Part shown: piece after piece, positions 9,163 to 64,000 of the stretch | How the letters are laid out: each line of letters starts with the position of its first letter | How positions within the stretch are numbered: position 1 is the stretch's first letter | Notes under the pieces: generated by a model | The model's input: only the letters and a program-made list of their open reading frames with translations | Database searches by the model: none | Told to the model about the DNA's origin: nothing | From: Minisyncoccota bacterium | GTDB lineage: Bacteria > Verrucomicrobiota > Verrucomicrobiia > Methylacidiphilales > Verrucolacustridaceae | Length of the DNA stretch: 64,000 nucleotides | Assembly (NCBI GenBank): GCA_030054195.1 | Contig: JASGCJ010000002.1 | Span: 25,777 to 89,776, forward strand | Direction: 5' to 3' | Made by a program: the position numbers and the translations under genes

Positions 9163-10001
9163 GCCCGACTCCAAAAAAAACGAATCCCTCCTCAGATGTG
9201 ATCCTCGAAGTGAAGGATCTTGTTCAATCGTACAATGGTCGGGCCGTCCTCAACGGCCTGAATTTCAAAGTCCGCAAAGGGGAAACTTTTGTCATCATGG
9301 GAGGGAGCGGTTGCGGAAAAACCACCCTTCTTCGGATCCTCATCGGAGCCCAAAAACCCACGTCTGGATCGGTCCACCTTTTCGGGGAGGATATCACGAA
9401 AGCCTCCTCTCAGGAATTGGATCGGATCCGGCTCCGTTTTGGAATGAACTTCCAATTCGGTGCCCTTTTCCAGTCGATGACCGTTGGCGAGAACATTGCC
9501 CTCCCCCTGCAGGAACATAGTCAGGTCGATCCCTCCCTCATTGAAATGATCGTGAAAATGAAGCTCGAACTTGTCGGACTCACCGGTTTTGAAAATTTCA
9601 AGCCTTCCGAGCTCAGCGGTGGAATGCGAAAACGGGTCGGCCTCGCCCGCGCCCTCGCTCTCGATCCTGAACTCCTGTTCAGTGACGAACCCACCTCTGG
9701 ACTCGACCCTGTCATGACCGCCGTGGTCGACCAGTTAACCCTCGACAGTACTCGCAAGATCGGCGTCACCGCCGTAGTCGTCAGCCACGATATGACCAGC
9801 TGCTTTCGTATTGCCACTCATATGCTCATGTTGGGAAACGGACCCCGCCAAGGAGAGATTATCGCCGAGGGAACCCCTGACGAAATCCGAGCCAACCCCG
9901 ACCCCTTTCTGCAGCAATTCGTCCGCGGGGAGGCGGACGGCCCGATTGCTTTCCGCCTTTCTCAAGATGATTACTTGAAACATCTCCTCCAAGAGGGCTG
10001 A
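9159..10001 (+). CDS. mlaF: MlaF-type phospholipid ABC transporter ATPase
   Basis: 280 residues. Walker A GGSGCGKTT at ~49-57, ABC signature LSGGMRKRVGLARAL, Walker B ELLFSDEP and the switch histidine in VVSHDM are all present, so the ATPase is complete. GGMRKR rather than GGQ is the usual variant of MlaF-like proteins. ATG 9159 overlaps the mlaE stop as ATGA, which rules out longer in-frame readings that run back into mlaE. The C-terminal ~40 residues (DPFLQQFVRGEADGP) are typical of the family. Confidence 0.95.
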   Translation: MSPTPKKTNPSSDVILEVKDLVQSYNGRAVLNGLNFKVRKGETFVIMGGSGCGKTTLLRILIGAQKPTSGSVHLFGEDITKASSQELDRIRLRFGMNFQFGALFQSMTVGENIALPLQEHSQVDPSLIEMIVKMKLELVGLTGFENFKPSELSGGMRKRVGLARALALDPELLFSDEPTSGLDPVMTAVVDQLTLDSTRKIGVTAVVVSHDMTSCFRIATHMLMLGNGPRQGEIIAEGTPDEIRANPDPFLQQFVRGEADGPIAFRLSQDDYLKHLLQEG

Positions 10002-57297: not shown

Positions 57298-60088
57298 AGT
57301 ACAATTTGAAGGCCCCCAATCCCCCGCCATTGTTTGGATCCCCTGTCATCACAGGGAAACCGACATCAAATTTCATCGGCCCAATACCGATGTCCATCCG
57401 GATTCCCACACCCGCTCCGATTTGGAATCCTCCGTTGATCGCGTTGTAGTCGGTCTGAACTCCATTCACCATCATGCTCTGAGTGTTGTTGTATGTCTTA
57501 GGCTGAAAATCAAAAACGTTCTCGTTCACAAATCCACCGTCACAGAAAACCGCCCACCGGACCCGATTTTCCAGAATCGGGAAAGGAGCGGAAACCTCTA
57601 CTTGATACACTCCTTGCGTACCACCACCCACAGGTTGGGCGTTCTGCTTTGGACCCACCGATCCTCCGTTCACCGTACTACCCAACGACGGATCGAAACC
57701 TCGGATCGATCCCGATCCACCCGCAAACAGCTGATCCCATACTGGCACGTAATCCGTGGTGCTGTAACTGTCGACTAAACCGAGCAAGGCCCGAGCAGAT
57801 AGAATCACATCTTTCTCCCTCCACAAGGTGTGATACGTCTTAAACTCGGCTTTAATCTTCCATATATTTTCACTTCCAAGAAGCGGTCCGCCCGCACCCT
57901 CAGCACCAAACTCAAAATACTGTCCCGAATGAGCCAACATATAACTGTCCCGACCGTCATAGGTTACGGAGCCCCGCAAAGACGACTTGAACGTGTCTCC
58001 CGTGGATGCCTGAAAATAAGGCGGCGCATCCGACTGAAGATCAGAAATGTCATAGTATTCTGGCCGATAAGTGACCCCCGTAGACCAACGATTCAGCGGA
58101 TAATCATCCCCCAGTCTTCGACTCAATCCAGTAAACGCCCCGTAATTCTTCTGATTATAGAATTCACTCAAATACGATGCACCATTGTAGTACCCACCCG
58201 CATCCAACCGAATCGGCTTATCCAAAAACCACGGTTCGGTGAATGATAGGTTGATGTTTTGGGACCGGAAACCAATCGATGCCTGGAACCGGACCTTCTG
58301 CCCCGCACCCCGCGGCGGGAAACTCTGAAAGATTCTTTGTAGATCAAAATTCTTCTCTCCCACCGTGATATTTCCCGTCAACAACTCGACCGAGCTGAAT
58401 CCCGCCCCGAAACTCACCTCACCCGTCCCCTTCTCCTCAACCTTCACGATCAGTTTTTGCCGATTCGGCACATCCGTCTCCTCCGCATACGTCTCCACTT
58501 TTGAAAAATAGTTCAAACCCTCCAATCTCTTTTTACTGGCCTTCTCTCGAACAGTGTCAAATACCTCCCCGGGTGCCAGGTCGATTTCTCGGCGAATGAC
58601 CTTGTCCCGTGTCGTGGTATTTCCCTGAATCTCAATCTTATCGACGTAAAATTTCTCCCCCTCCTTCAGGTTGAAACTCACGTCGATTCGCCCGTTCTCC
58701 ACATTGGGGGTCATCCGATACTCGACTCGCGCCTCACGAAACCCTCGACGTCCGTACTTGTCTTGCAAAGTTTCGATCGAGGCCTGAAGGGAATTGATCG
58801 AGTAAATTTCCCCCTCCTGCAAACCATTCGCTTTGATCATCTTTAACTCAATTTGGTCAAAGATCTCCACCTGCTTCGCCTTCGTCTGCAGTTCGTTCAA
58901 CAAATCATCCGCCGAGAAAAATGCGTTCCCTTCGACCGACAACACTCCCACTCGGTACTGCCGCCCCTCCTCAATTCGGTACGTTAAAATCAGATCCTCC
59001 GCAGGAATGTCATCGGGATCGAAATCCTCCCCTCTCGGAGCATCCGAATCTTTTTTGGCCTCCTCATTTTTAGCTGTACGGGGCATGTCCACCGAGGCGG
59101 ACACACCAATATCGATATACCCCTGATTGAGGTAATAATTTTTAATTCGTGCCACATCGTCCTTGAGCGCCAGCTCTTCGAATCGGTCCGATTTGCTGAA
59201 AAGCTGCCACCACTCCTTCGGCTTGAGCTTGACCACTTTTTCCAGCTCTTTTGCAGTTGCAGCTTGGTTTCCGATAAATCGAATCTTGCTGATAAATCCA
59301 CGAATTCCCTCGTCGATTTCAAAGACTACCTTCGCCTCCCCCCCCTTTACCGCCTCCTGCTTCGCGATAATTTTCACATCTTTGTATCCCTTGTCCCGGT
59401 AAAAATCCTCCATCGCAAACGCATCCCTTTGCAATCGCTCTTCGCTCAAGGTGTCTCCTGCCTTCGTCACAGTCTCTTTTGGTGTAAACGCATTCGCCAA
59501 TGCTGCTGCCCCTTTCGCATCACTCGCCGTCAAAGCCTTGAGCTTGAGATCCAGCAGATCTTCTTTGTCTACTGAGAGCTCATCATCCAATCCCCCATCC
59601 GCCCGCTTTCTTTTCACCACCACCTCAGCAACCCGAACTTTCGGATCCACCAAGACAGTCAATCTCACCCCACGCTCCCCATCATCCGCCCGCATCTCGG
59701 AAGTCACAATCTGCACGTTTTCATAATCTCCCGTTTGATAAAGGGTCTCAATGTCACCATCCACCACCTGCTGAGAATACACTCCGCCCTTATTGCTACG
59801 CATATTCTGGCGTATTTTGTCCTCGTTGATCGTCACATCCGGTCTCTTCGATGAATACTCCACTTCCAAAATTTTGATTTGGCCGCTAGCCGCTTTTTCC
59901 GATGAGGAAGGTGAGGGCACAAAGGTTTTTGCACGGGTCTGGGAAGGTTGAACCTCAGGACTCTTCTCACTCTCCTGTGCGCCCAATTCACTTCCCAAAA
60001 AGCACAGAACTAAAATAGACAAAACCCATCCCCGAACCCCAAAAGAGGCCCATTTTGACACACCCGTTGCTACACCCGATTTTTTCAC
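57275..60088 (-). CDS. bamA: Outer membrane protein assembly factor BamA
   Basis: 937 residues. Signal peptide to ~40 (VLSILVLCFLGSELGAQ), five POTRA-like domains from ~72 to ~520 (GFISKIRFIGNQAATAKELEK and KFYVDKIEIQGNTTTRDKVIRREI among them), and a 16-strand barrel with the L6 signature IRGFDPSLGS. The C-terminal KLYFDGGYQF fits the BAM recognition motif. It is longer than E. coli BamA (~810), with an extended POTRA region and an acidic insertion near 320 (PRGEDFDPDDIP). GTG start at 60088. Confidence 0.97.
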   Translation of the reverse strand: MKKSGVATGVSKWASFGVRGWVLSILVLCFLGSELGAQESEKSPEVQPSQTRAKTFVPSPSSSEKAASGQIKILEVEYSSKRPDVTINEDKIRQNMRSNKGGVYSQQVVDGDIETLYQTGDYENVQIVTSEMRADDGERGVRLTVLVDPKVRVAEVVVKRKRADGGLDDELSVDKEDLLDLKLKALTASDAKGAAALANAFTPKETVTKAGDTLSEERLQRDAFAMEDFYRDKGYKDVKIIAKQEAVKGGEAKVVFEIDEGIRGFISKIRFIGNQAATAKELEKVVKLKPKEWWQLFSKSDRFEELALKDDVARIKNYYLNQGYIDIGVSASVDMPRTAKNEEAKKDSDAPRGEDFDPDDIPAEDLILTYRIEEGRQYRVGVLSVEGNAFFSADDLLNELQTKAKQVEIFDQIELKMIKANGLQEGEIYSINSLQASIETLQDKYGRRGFREARVEYRMTPNVENGRIDVSFNLKEGEKFYVDKIEIQGNTTTRDKVIRREIDLAPGEVFDTVREKASKKRLEGLNYFSKVETYAEETDVPNRQKLIVKVEEKGTGEVSFGAGFSSVELLTGNITVGEKNFDLQRIFQSFPPRGAGQKVRFQASIGFRSQNINLSFTEPWFLDKPIRLDAGGYYNGASYLSEFYNQKNYGAFTGLSRRLGDDYPLNRWSTGVTYRPEYYDISDLQSDAPPYFQASTGDTFKSSLRGSVTYDGRDSYMLAHSGQYFEFGAEGAGGPLLGSENIWKIKAEFKTYHTLWREKDVILSARALLGLVDSYSTTDYVPVWDQLFAGGSGSIRGFDPSLGSTVNGGSVGPKQNAQPVGGGTQGVYQVEVSAPFPILENRVRWAVFCDGGFVNENVFDFQPKTYNNTQSMMVNGVQTDYNAINGGFQIGAGVGIRMDIGIGPMKFDVGFPVMTGDPNNGGGLGAFKLYFDGGYQF

Positions 60089-60170
60089 GGTAAACTACGT
60101 AAATAGCTATCAATAAGCTCTTGTCGATACCCAGTTATGAAACTTCTTAACTATTGAAGCTTAATAACTT

Positions 60171-60203
60171 AAAAAAGCTGCCCTGTTGGCTCTTAAGCTT
60201 TTT
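60171..60203 (-). terminator. Possible intrinsic terminator after rplI
   Basis: Minus strand: AAAAAGCT … GCC AACAG GGC AGCTTTTTT, overlapping the rplI stop, ending in six T. The stem is bulged and AU-rich, so termination may be partial. Confidence 0.35.
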
Positions 60204-60729
60204 CTTCAGTAGACTCAGTCGCTGTGCTTTTCCGCGGACGACGACTCTTTACAGGCTTCTCGAAATTCTCGTCCGTATTCCCAGTCACCTTGACCTTAAT
60301 TTGGACTTTAACCGAGTACCCCAGATCCACCGTCACATCATGTTCACCCACATGATTGATGGCCTTGGCCACCACCACATCCCGCCTCTCCACCTCAAAT
60401 CCTTTTTCATTCAAAGCTGCAGCGATCTCTGTAGCCGTAATCGACCCAAAGAGCTTCTCCGCACCCTCTTGTGCCTGCTTCAGTTCAAAAGCTAATGCCA
60501 GCTTTGCCAACTTGGACGCCTTCTCCTGCGTCGCAGCCGCTTCCGCTGCCTCCCTCTCCCCCCGCCGCTTCTTTAAGGAATCAATCTGCCGCTTGCTGGC
60601 TGCATTCACAGGCGAGGCCAATCCACGCGGAAATAGAAAATTCCTCGCATATCCTGGCTTCACGCGTACCAAATCCGCCTCTGCGCCTAGCCCCTTCACG
60701 GGACCTTTTAAAATAACTTCTTGGTTCAT
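60193..60729 (-). CDS. rplI: 50S ribosomal protein L9
   Basis: 178 residues. N-terminal LKGPVKGLGAEADLVRVKPGYARNFLFPRGLA is the L9 signature (read as GxxGxxxxVxxGYxRNxLxPxxxA), then a long helix and a C-terminal domain. There is a ~25-residue basic/Ser tail (RRPRKSTATESTEE) beyond the usual 148-150. It lies 27 bases after ssb, with no rpsR between them. Confidence 0.97.
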   Translation of the reverse strand: MNQEVILKGPVKGLGAEADLVRVKPGYARNFLFPRGLASPVNAASKRQIDSLKKRRGEREAAEAAATQEKASKLAKLALAFELKQAQEGAEKLFGSITATEIAAALNEKGFEVERRDVVVAKAINHVGEHDVTVDLGYSVKVQIKVKVTGNTDENFEKPVKSRRPRKSTATESTEEKA

Positions 60730-60756
60730 AGTTTGTTTTTTTCCTCTGTTGTATTT

Positions 60757-61218
60757 TTAGAAAGGAACATCATCTTCAGGAATCTCTCGCGCCGGAGCCG
60801 ATCCCTTTCCACCACTCTCTCCCTCTGCAGCCCCACCCGCTCCACCACTTTTCCCAGTTCGTCCAGCACCTCCTGCTCCACCTCCACCCCCACGAGACAA
60901 AAATTGAACCCGATCCGCACGCACTCTCATGCGACTCTTCTTTTCCCCCTCCGGCCCCTCCCACTGATCCAACTGCAGCCGTCCCTCCACAAAAACAGGC
61001 GCCCCCTTGCTCAAATAGTCCCGGCACGTCTCCGCCTGCCTTCCCCAAACGACCACATCTACGTAACAAACTTCCTCCTTCTCCGTTCCGTCCTGAGCAC
61101 GATAACTCATGTTGATGGCCATCGCTAAATCTCCCACTGCCGTACCCTTGGGCGTGTGACGCACCTCCGGATCGCGGGTCAGATTCCCCATCAGGAAAAC
61201 TTTATTCAAACTCGCCAT
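60757..61218 (-). CDS. ssb: Single-stranded DNA-binding protein
   Basis: 153 residues. OB fold at ~1-108 with NKVFLMGNLTRDPEVRHTPKG; then a Gly/Arg-rich linker and the acidic tip DDVPF that recruits partner proteins. It lies 10 bases after rpsF. Confidence 0.97.
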   Translation of the reverse strand: MASLNKVFLMGNLTRDPEVRHTPKGTAVGDLAMAINMSYRAQDGTEKEEVCYVDVVVWGRQAETCRDYLSKGAPVFVEGRLQLDQWEGPEGEKKSRMRVRADRVQFLSRGGGGGAGGAGRTGKSGGAGGAAEGESGGKGSAPAREIPEDDVPF

Positions 61219-61228
61219 ACAATTTTCC

Positions 61229-61564
61229 TTAAGCCGTAGCCTCCGCCGTCTTATTTTCGCTCTTTTTGCGCAACTCTGCCTCCGAAACGCTCACCAAGAC
61301 GTATCGGTAGACACAAGTGGTTAAGGCCAATTTTCCCCGAAGCTTGACGATCGATTCGGGTGGCAACTCGCACGTCATATTCGCATAGAAACCCGACTCC
61401 AACGCCCCCGCCACATACTCGAATTTCCTACGCTCCATTTTCTGAGTTCGGGTCACTTTGCCACCTACCGATTTCACCTCACCCTCCACTTGCGCCAACA
61501 CCTCAGGCAAAGATTCCTCTTTGCCCGCTAAATCCAAAACTACCAATAGATCGTATGTCTTCAT
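61229..61564 (-). CDS. rpsF: 30S ribosomal protein S6
   Basis: 111 residues: MKTYDLLVVLD opens the ferredoxin-like S6 fold, and KKMERRKFEYVAGALESGFYANMTCEL-type sequence follows (here read in parts as ERRKFEYV and GFYANMTCELP). ATG 61564 overlaps the pth stop as ATGA, and a start at 61606 is therefore rejected. The C-terminus ends KKSENKTAEATA. Confidence 0.95.
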   Translation of the reverse strand: MKTYDLLVVLDLAGKEESLPEVLAQVEGEVKSVGGKVTRTQKMERRKFEYVAGALESGFYANMTCELPPESIVKLRGKLALTTCVYRYVLVSVSEAELRKKSENKTAEATA

Positions 61565-62133
61565 GCCTCCACTTTCCGGTTTCCCAAAGGCAGCGCAGCA
61601 TCCCATCCGCTCTGCCTCCAGATCTCCACGGCCTCCACAGCCGCAACCACCATTCGGTCGACCACAGGCCGCTCGTCCGGTGTAAACTTTTCCAAAACAT
61701 GATCCGCAGTCGCCCGAGCCCCCACCGGCCGACCCACCCCACCCCGCAACCGAGGATACGCTTTCGTCCCCAACAAGGTTTCGATCGAGTCTAATCCACG
61801 ATGCCCACCACTCGAACCCTCCGCTCGCAATCGGAGTTTTCCTAAAGGCAGATCCACATCATCCATAATCACCATAAAATTTTCTTGGGACACTTTCCAC
61901 CAAGCCAGAGCCGCCCGAATCGCCTCCCCAGACGCATTCATCATCGTGGAGGGCTTCAGCAGGATTAGATTCTCCGGGGTGCGGGTCGCCCACCCATCGG
62001 CATAGCGACATTTTTCCCAGCGGAGTTTCTGATTCGACGCGATTCGATCCACTACCTCGAAACCGAAATTGTGGCGAGTTCCCTCGTAAGGTTGACCCTC
62101 ATTCCCCAACCCGGCGACCAAGCCGATCTCCAT
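61561..62133 (-). CDS. pth: Peptidyl-tRNA hydrolase
   Basis: 190 residues. GLGNEGQPYEGTRHNFGFEVVD holds the catalytic His (RHN), with the matching Asp in MNASGEAI and DDVDLPLGKLRLRAEGSSGGHRGLDSI downstream. It releases peptides from stalled peptidyl-tRNA. Follows rplY with an 18-base gap, the usual rplY-pth pairing. Confidence 0.97.
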   Translation of the reverse strand: MEIGLVAGLGNEGQPYEGTRHNFGFEVVDRIASNQKLRWEKCRYADGWATRTPENLILLKPSTMMNASGEAIRAALAWWKVSQENFMVIMDDVDLPLGKLRLRAEGSSGGHRGLDSIETLLGTKAYPRLRGGVGRPVGARATADHVLEKFTPDERPVVDRMVVAAVEAVEIWRQSGWDAALPLGNRKVEA

Positions 62134-62151
62134 CGTGCCTCCTGCCCGCGG

Positions 62152-62919
62152 TTACTTCTTAGCCGGTTCCTTCTTGGCCCCCTCCTTGGCGTCCGCCTTC
62201 GCCGGCTCCTTCTTTTCAGCCTTTCCAGCATCTTTCTTGTCACCCTTGTCCGCAACAGCTCCGGCCTCCTCACCCTCCTTCTTCTGACGAATAACCTCAG
62301 GCTCAGCCGCCGCAGCCGCAGCTCCCTCAGGAGTCGGGGCTTCTTCCACTTTCGGTAACAACACCATAAACACGGGCAATTCCCGCGTGTTCAAAACCGT
62401 TACACCTGCAGGGAGGTTCACCTCGCCCACGAGAATCGCTTTCCCCACTTCCAAATGAGAAACATCCACGTCGATCCGCTCCGGCAGATCTTTGGGCAAA
62501 CACTCCACCCGCAAAGTACGCAGATTGTGATCCAAAATTCCCCCCCCTGTCCTGACACCGACGGCCTCCCCCACCTCGTGCACGGGAACTTCCACACGCA
62601 GCTTCTTGTTTTCCTCAATCGCATGAAAATCCACATGCTCGATCGTATCCCGCAACGGGTCGTGCTGAACTTCCCGGATTAACGCTATCCGCTTCGTGAT
62701 CGCTCCACCTTCACCTTCTAAAGTCAGATCAATCAACACACTTTCAGAACTGGCCCCATGCAACGCCTCAGCAATCTCACGCCCATTTAATTCCAGAGGC
62801 TGTGCCGTGCCCACCCCGTAGAGAATGGCGGGAACACGACCGCTGGCACGAATCCGACGGGGCCGACGCCCGCCGATCTCAGCTCGAACTTTTGCTTTGA
62901 TTCCTAACCTCTTAGCCAC
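62152..62919 (-). CDS. rplY: 50S ribosomal protein L25 (CTC/TL5 family)
   Basis: 255 residues. The 5S-rRNA-binding domain occupies ~1-95 (GIKAKVRAEIGGRRPRRIRASGRVPAILYG), the second TL5 domain lies at ~100-200, and a Lys/Ala/Glu-rich tail of ~55 residues (KKDAGKAEKKEPAKADAKE) follows. The GTG start at 62919 has GGAGGT five bases upstream. First gene of rplY-pth-rpsF-ssb-rplI. Confidence 0.96.
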   Translation of the reverse strand: MAKRLGIKAKVRAEIGGRRPRRIRASGRVPAILYGVGTAQPLELNGREIAEALHGASSESVLIDLTLEGEGGAITKRIALIREVQHDPLRDTIEHVDFHAIEENKKLRVEVPVHEVGEAVGVRTGGGILDHNLRTLRVECLPKDLPERIDVDVSHLEVGKAILVGEVNLPAGVTVLNTRELPVFMVLLPKVEEAPTPEGAAAAAAEPEVIRQKKEGEEAGAVADKGDKKDAGKAEKKEPAKADAKEGAKKEPAKK

Positions 62920-62947
62920 GTTTTACCTCCGTAATATTGAAGGGAAA

Positions 62948-62976
62948 ATTAAACCAACTTTTCCCCAACAGGTCAA
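62948..62976 (-). promoter_or_regulatory. Sigma70-like promoter of rplY-pth-rpsF-ssb-rplI
   Basis: Minus strand: -35 TTGACC (62976-62971), 17-base spacer, -10 TTTAAT (62953-62948). Start expected near 62941, giving a ~22-base leader with a strong GGAGGT ribosome site. Unlike the other promoters in the window, this one has a normal leader. Confidence 0.6.
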
Positions 62977-63058
62977 CGCATATTCCAATGTCGATTCGTC
63001 ACGATGAAACCTTGTGCCCGTAAACGAAATCCTTTCAGAAATTTCTTACTCTCGTGTG

Positions 63059-63097
63059 CAAAAAAAGAACCCTTGGAGGTTTTGCCTCCAAGGGTTC
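63059..63097 (-). terminator. Strong intrinsic terminator of the minus-strand RNA
   Basis: Read on the minus strand: a perfect 13-bp stem GAACCCTTGGAGG / CCTCCAAGGGTTC (63097-63085 with 63079-63067), 5-base loop CAAAA, followed by seven T. On the plus strand the T-run is on the wrong side, so transcription comes from the right. Confidence 0.9.
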
Positions 63098-64000
63098 GTA
63101 CGGGTGTGGGAGTTCGCCACGCTCTCTTTCCCAGTGACTGGCTATTTGGCGCCTGGACCAATCTCTCGATTCATCCTGCTTTTTCCTTCGGCTGCCAGTT
63201 CCCCGACGCTATTCACCGCCCACGCTTCACGGCGCAGGAGGAGTTTACGGCCTCATAGCAGGGCCGCCGCGACCATCCCTGATCGCGATCTATTGAGTGA
63301 AGCCTCTTTGCCTGGTTCGGTCCGTACCTGCCGGTACGGGCGCGCCACACACGGTGTTGACCCACCCACGAGAATTACCCTGTGACGGGTTGTTTTGCGG
63401 GTCACCACCTTGAGTCAGGAGGACTGCCAGCACTTTTGGCGCTGCGTTGGCCCCCTGCCACGGGTCTAGCTTCTTACCTCTCAGGTTGCTTTTTCCTCGT
63501 AGCCGGGCGACGTCCCTCTCGGGTCCGCCCCCCGAACTCGGAGTTGGGCTGTTGACCAAGCCTGCCGACCTGATCTCCCATCTCCGTTTATTCGCTGTTA
63601 GCCCTTTTCGCGCTTCCCCTGCATCAGAGGAAACCTTAGAGCCGAGGACCTTACGACCCCCAACCCAAACCAACCACGAATACCTGACCTTCTCACAGTA
63701 GCAACCATCGCCCTTTTCTTGGAGCGACTGTGTCCGCCAAGGGAACCGAAACCGTCCCCCCAACGTGACTTGGCTAGCATGCGGCTTCTTTAGTTATCGC
63801 TGCCAACCTCTCAAACCCCTAATTCGCATTCTACGGACACCGTCATTGCCTTCGCTTTCACTCCGACTTTGCCGATGTTTTTCTGGGTGCGACCCCAGCC
63901 GCGGGATTTGGTGAGACATGCCCTTGCTGGACTTGTGATCCAACCTGGGGGCCGAGGCAGTCAAGCCTCCTCGACCATTCTCCAGTTACCTGGAGCTATC
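63059..64000 (-). ncRNA. Large structured RNA-like locus, unidentified (partial)
   Basis: No credible gene occurs in the last 0.9 kb: frames are broken and the one long minus-strand reading (63290-63763) has a composition unlike neighbouring proteins. On the minus strand many hairpins are visible: CTCCAG-GTAA-CTGGAG (63995-63980; GNRA loop), CTGGG/CCCAG (63898-63883), CCGTACC/GGTACGG (63339-63322), CGCGA/TCGCG (63268-63287), and the terminator. Probable single-stranded stretches are A-rich on this strand only (GAAAAAG, CGAAAAG, CAAAAG). It does not match 16S, 23S or 5S rRNA, tmRNA or RNase P RNA as I know them. The 5' end lies beyond 64000; strand is set by the terminator. Confidence 0.5.

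Follow-up and report, generated by a model that had tools for sequence, protein, structure and literature searches.

The window, i.e., the whole stretch of 64,000 nucleotides that was analysed, carries a large RNA gene on the minus strand at its right-hand end. An S9 peptidase gene lies upstream of it, and in the window the genes rplY-pth-rpsF-ssb-rplI are found directly downstream on the same strand, past a terminator. The region 60000-64000 was scanned with all 4227 Rfam families, and the whole window was scanned as well. MISL RNA (RF03079) is the sole match above threshold in 60000-64000. The RNA displays the following features.

63109..64000, minus strand: MISL RNA (RF03079), model positions 2-751; cmscan score 364.9 bits, E 1e-108
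63460..63489, minus strand: most conserved core, GCAACCTGAGAGGTAAGAAGCTAGACCCGT; the pattern is present in at least 118 genome contigs
63980..63995, minus strand: first MISL hairpin, CUCCAG-GUAA-CUGGAG, with a GUAA (GNRA) tetraloop; Rfam model positions 8-21

The match is cut at its 5′ end by the window edge, and the contig base that follows this edge corresponds to model position 1. The full locus (G000:C82:88885-89777) comprises 893 nt, scores 375.3 bits and covers both ends of the model (1-751 of 751). Both scores exceed the curated gathering threshold of 274.6 bits. The locus is also detected by a sequence-only HMM (E 1e-83). The minus strand has a minimum free energy of -381.8 kcal/mol versus a mean of -338.2 kcal/mol for dinucleotide shuffles, all 20 of which it surpasses (z -4.5). 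The stretch is a genuine large structured non-coding RNA gene and a member of the listed family MISL. That it has this identity and is also transcribed autonomously is, taken jointly, highly probable. The family was reportedly first described by Weinberg et al. in 2017. MISL RNA is also named in the Ribonanza study, in which a section of MISL was chemically mapped (PMC10925082).

An initial annotation, made from the window sequence, had predicted a large structured minus-strand RNA here, and the RF03079 match, the folding energy and the covariation described below all bear this out. The GNRA tetraloop hairpin is exactly where it had been placed. The RNA had been regarded as unidentified and potentially novel, with an Rfam search as the proposed check; that search finds a full-length member of a known family, and both descriptions have to be withdrawn. 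The observation that the RNA has no rRNA, tmRNA, RNase P or intron landmark is upheld, as none of these families, nor OLE, GOLLD or ROOL, gives an Rfam match at the locus among the 4227 families at E up to 1. Group I and group II introns and other ribozyme families are likewise without a match at E up to 1.

The window copy resembles RF03079 in its full-length match above the cut-off, its conserved core and its fold. It differs in length, with 893 nt versus the 751 positions of the model, and the excess consists of clade-specific peripheral insertions, for example one of ∼48 nt that follows the hairpin of model positions 106-121. The window gene also has a 5′ motif, a 5′ hairpin and a 3′ terminator, all of which lie outside the RF03079 model. 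What is contributed here is thus the anatomy of the RNA and not its kind: a longer transcript, a boxA-like start and pseudoknots.

Fold, covariation and pseudoknots

A total of 141 homologues were aligned with the Rfam consensus as guide row. Over these sequences 80% of the pair cells in the model are canonical; many helices exceed 95% and display three to six pair types. The stretches that pair poorly are for the most part gapped or variable and hard to place by sequence, and some model regions are misaligned. The MISL model fold is kept by compensatory change in the homologues. Covariation among homologues, proposed as a check in the initial annotation, is present: the Rfam helices pair and covary across the 141 sequences.

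Single-pair covariation with APC yielded no more than 14 pairs with E of 0.1 or below (135 sequences), and for this reason a helix-level test was used. The helix-level scan of 135 non-redundant sequences recovered the Rfam helices on top, unsupervised, and additional helices were also found. The null consisted of 40 phylogeny-aware alignments, in each of which every column's substitutions were re-placed on the tree; the maximum obtained was 109. Four extra helices, termed A to D, surpass every one of the 40 null maxima. As all four cross model helices, they are pseudoknots.

63888..63892 UCGCA / 63824..63828 UGCGA, minus strand: pseudoknot A, model 112-116/128-132; covariation 292 versus null maximum 109
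63497..63502 CUACGA / 63366..63371 UCGUGG, minus strand: pseudoknot B, model 416-421/529-532; covariation 290 versus null maximum 109
63701..63706 GGUUGC / 63484..63489 GCAACC, minus strand: pseudoknot C, model 238-243/429-434; covariation 189 versus null maximum 109
63256..63260 UGCUA / 63207..63211 UAGCG, minus strand: pseudoknot D, model 640-644/676-680; covariation 127 versus null maximum 109

The window sequence forms all four, with pseudoknot B in altered form (CUACGA/UCGUGG versus the consensus CUGCAA/UUGCAG). The 3′ arm of pseudoknot C (63484-63489) sits inside the conserved core, and in pseudoknot D every cell is canonical. Covariance models cannot hold pseudoknots, and at least four are missing from the Rfam model; it is not claimed that they are new to science. 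A kissing loop at 162-166/198-202 and helices at 711-714/742-745, 38-42/253-257 and 198-201/531-534 did not rise above the 40 nulls.

Transcript ends and the boxA-like motif

The 3′ end of the gene is marked by two elements.

63067..63097, minus strand: intrinsic terminator stem-loop of 13 bp, ∼12 nt past the MISL model end, a position shared by homologues from every clade
63060..63066, minus strand: T7 tract of the terminator, predicted 3′ end of the transcript

A 13 bp stem followed by seven T had been reported in the initial annotation, and the stem (63097-63067) is indeed perfect, with the T7 at 63066-63060. In nearly all homologous loci a terminator stands right behind the model; its sequence varies and its position is constant. 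The only other Rfam match at E up to 1, a sub-threshold one to His_leader (62996-63100, plus strand; 27 bits versus a cut-off of 49), overlaps the terminator. It is probably a chance product of the terminator hairpin.

A hairpin of ∼45 nt precedes the model at the 5′ side. Its closing stem has at least 5 bp in 114 of 131 loci; exchanging the arms between loci lowers this number to 43 on average and 59 at most. This upstream hairpin covaries, and the Rfam model does not have the 5′ domain. The motif GTTCnTTGAnAGAAC is present with at most two mismatches in all 131 loci, mostly 54-63 nt 5′ of the model start, and occurs once per genome in 12 of the 13 genomes searched. In the commonest arrangement of loci the motif is preceded, at a distance of 7 nt, by a -10-like hexamer; in the window genome this hexamer is TATAAC, lies at the same distance from GTTCATTGAAAGAAC and would be the -10 element of the promoter. 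A scan with the sigma-70 consensus promoter gave no site above the scan threshold.

Based on the placement of the -10 hexamer, the 5′ motif and the terminator, transcription is predicted to begin at or next to GTTCATTGAAAGAAC, at about window coordinate 64064, which lies beyond the window, and to stop in the T tract at 63060. The transcript would total ∼1.0 kb, and the MISL gene would form an autonomous transcription unit of this length here. Truncation by the window edge, pointed out in the initial annotation, is real but small: it removes 1 nt of the model and ∼64 nt of the predicted transcript.

DnaA-box-like sites are found ∼50-115 nt before the GTTCnTTGA motif, at preferred positions (in locus L002, around 9900-9915, minus strand). 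The sequence TTWTNCAC is present in 74 of 131 loci and its inverse orientation in 69 of 131, versus 0 and 4 in shuffled sequence; the site in the window genome is AGTTATTCACA. Through these sites MISL synthesis might be tied to DnaA or to some other regulator.

The 5′ motif was also considered as a hairpin or operator formed by its GTTC/GAAC arms. No covariation is seen between these arms, and GTTCnTTGA is retained in most of the loci that deviate; for these two reasons a linear, boxA-like reading is preferred. BoxA binds NusB/NusE and counters Rho-dependent termination in rRNA (PMC5725501, PMC4807359), and the gamma-proteobacterial consensus is GYTCTTTAANA. When the motif core is compared with the 16S rRNA leaders of MISL-bearing genomes, 9-12 of 12 positions match in all 15 usable loci (14 genomes), and 11 of the 15 matches surpass those of shuffled sequence at P of 0.025 or below. 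The leader elements include GTTCTTTGAAAG in genomes G192 and G154, GCTCTTTGAAAG in G264 and G071, GTTCTTTGATAG in G354 and GTTCTTTGAGAG in G149. The match is not significant in G423, in both copies of G251 and in the window's own genome, where the leader element GTTCTTTTACAA is no better than shuffles (P 0.255). Genome G251 deviates alike at both places, with GATCTTTCACAG in the 16S leader and GATCTTTGACAGAAC at MISL, and its leader match alone is not significant. The boxA reading thus rests on relatives and is weakest in the window's own genome.

It is proposed that the motif in the nascent RNA works as a boxA, loading NusB/NusE (S10), and that the polymerase then escapes termination by Rho while it transcribes this long RNA that is not translated, just as it does on rRNA operons. 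MISL is probably transcribed by a Nus-antiterminated polymerase in the manner of rRNA. The reading is a natural one because protection against Rho would benefit an RNA that is long and untranslated. The MISL motif has in common with the boxA of rRNA leaders the boxA-like core GTTCTTTGAAAG. It differs in that it is extended to GTTCnTTGAnAGAAC, stands at the predicted transcript start, and precedes a product that is not rRNA.

Distribution and possible role

MISL is widespread but patchy in Verrucomicrobiota. Of 384 genomes sampled across the window's class, 93 have it, mostly in single copy; it was detected in 31 of 388 genomes of a phylum-wide sample, in 14 of 60 near relatives and in 13 of 21 genomes of the same genus, many of these last assemblies being incomplete; 14 control genomes yielded none. 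The conserved-core pattern occurs in at least 118 contigs, and among the matches listed nearly all are labelled Verrucomicrobia, with Opitutae, Opitutaceae, Pedosphaera, Limisphaera and subdivision 6 among the labels. In viral contigs this pattern gives one match, in a contig of 2.3 kb.

Five same-genus contigs (G016:C29, G008:C67, G012:C89, G009:C18 and G015:C118) end inside MISL or less than 100 nt from it. The cause may be a tangling of assembly graphs by this conserved RNA, of the kind that rRNA brings about. With contigs ending at MISL, the RNA seems more absent than it is in reality. Two genomes of family f20, G188 and G277, have two diverged MISL copies each.

The finished RNA is envisaged to act in trans and not on an adjacent gene. 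As for its molecular role, a scaffold bound by protein or ornate RNP resembling OLE is the leading guess, though a tentative one; other functions exerted in trans would be just as compatible with conservation in single copy. A more inclusive proposal, and a more doubtful one, is that MISL represents an rRNA-like stable RNA of Verrucomicrobiota, single-copy, heavily knotted and ∼0.8-1.0 kb long. It would be antiterminated by Nus/boxA from a promoter behind DnaA-box-like sites, be synthesized in step with growth or the cell cycle, and function as a trans-acting structural RNP.

By analogy with ROOL and GOLLD, MISL might instead form a naked homo-oligomeric RNA particle, or cage, and not a protein scaffold; the likelihood of this is rather low. 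GOLLD and ROOL are phage-associated, whereas MISL is chromosomal and its core pattern has the single viral-contig match. Consistent with a cage are the same size class, the many pseudoknots and the conserved hairpin loops, as well as the homo-oligomers that GOLLD, ROOL and OLE form by cryo-EM (PMC12286853). The knotted fold and an unpaired core that is strongly conserved would also suit a large ribozyme, or else a self-splicing intron that has degenerated. This is improbable, as ribozyme models, those of group I and group II introns included, give no match even at E 1, and the RNA lies outside other genes, with a 5′ motif and a terminator of its own.

Slightly more improbable still is a cis-regulatory leader of rplY, such as a ribosomal-protein leader. 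The position of rplY-pth-rpsF-ssb-rplI directly downstream on the same strand would fit this role, and same-genus loci do have an rplY match downstream, but rplY is found there in same-genus loci only, and a strong terminator separates MISL from rplY. In other clades a divergent DEAH/HrpB-type helicase gene lies upstream (49 loci) or a cysteine-synthase-like gene adjoins MISL (14 loci), both gene names being read from sequence; because neighbours change in this way between clades, the linkage to rplY is not conserved and a cis-acting role is unlikely. An unannotated protein gene, or a chance structure, can practically be dismissed, since the 157-amino-acid open frame that might favour the former (63290-63763, the longest in the sense direction) has a TTG start, same-genus homologues lose the frame or gain stops, length changes among homologues are not all multiples of three, and base pairs covary. 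The initial annotation had seen no supported gene upstream of rplY, which agrees with this loss of the frame in the genus, and the protein-coding alternative that it had kept, with codon-like conservation, falls for the same reason and on the length changes.

A trans-acting structured RNA remains the preferred reading. Few bacterial RNAs of such great size still lack an assigned function, and MISL is one of them; within its family the locus is unremarkable. What has been added are the likely true transcript ends, and a 5′ domain and several pseudoknots missing from the Rfam model. True ends and pseudoknots are a practical prerequisite for a correct construct, be it for structure determination or deletion, and the boxA-like start offers a directly testable tie to the rRNA antitermination machinery.

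Among known RNAs, ROOL and GOLLD resemble MISL in size class and ornate fold; they differ in that MISL matches neither in Rfam and, as a chromosomal RNA, is almost absent from viral contigs. OLE is described in two reports as a membrane-associated RNP (PMC11332333, PMC10898510). MISL has no Rfam OLE match, belongs to a different phylum and has no membrane protein partner seen adjoining it, but like OLE it is a large, stand-alone structured RNA of bacteria.
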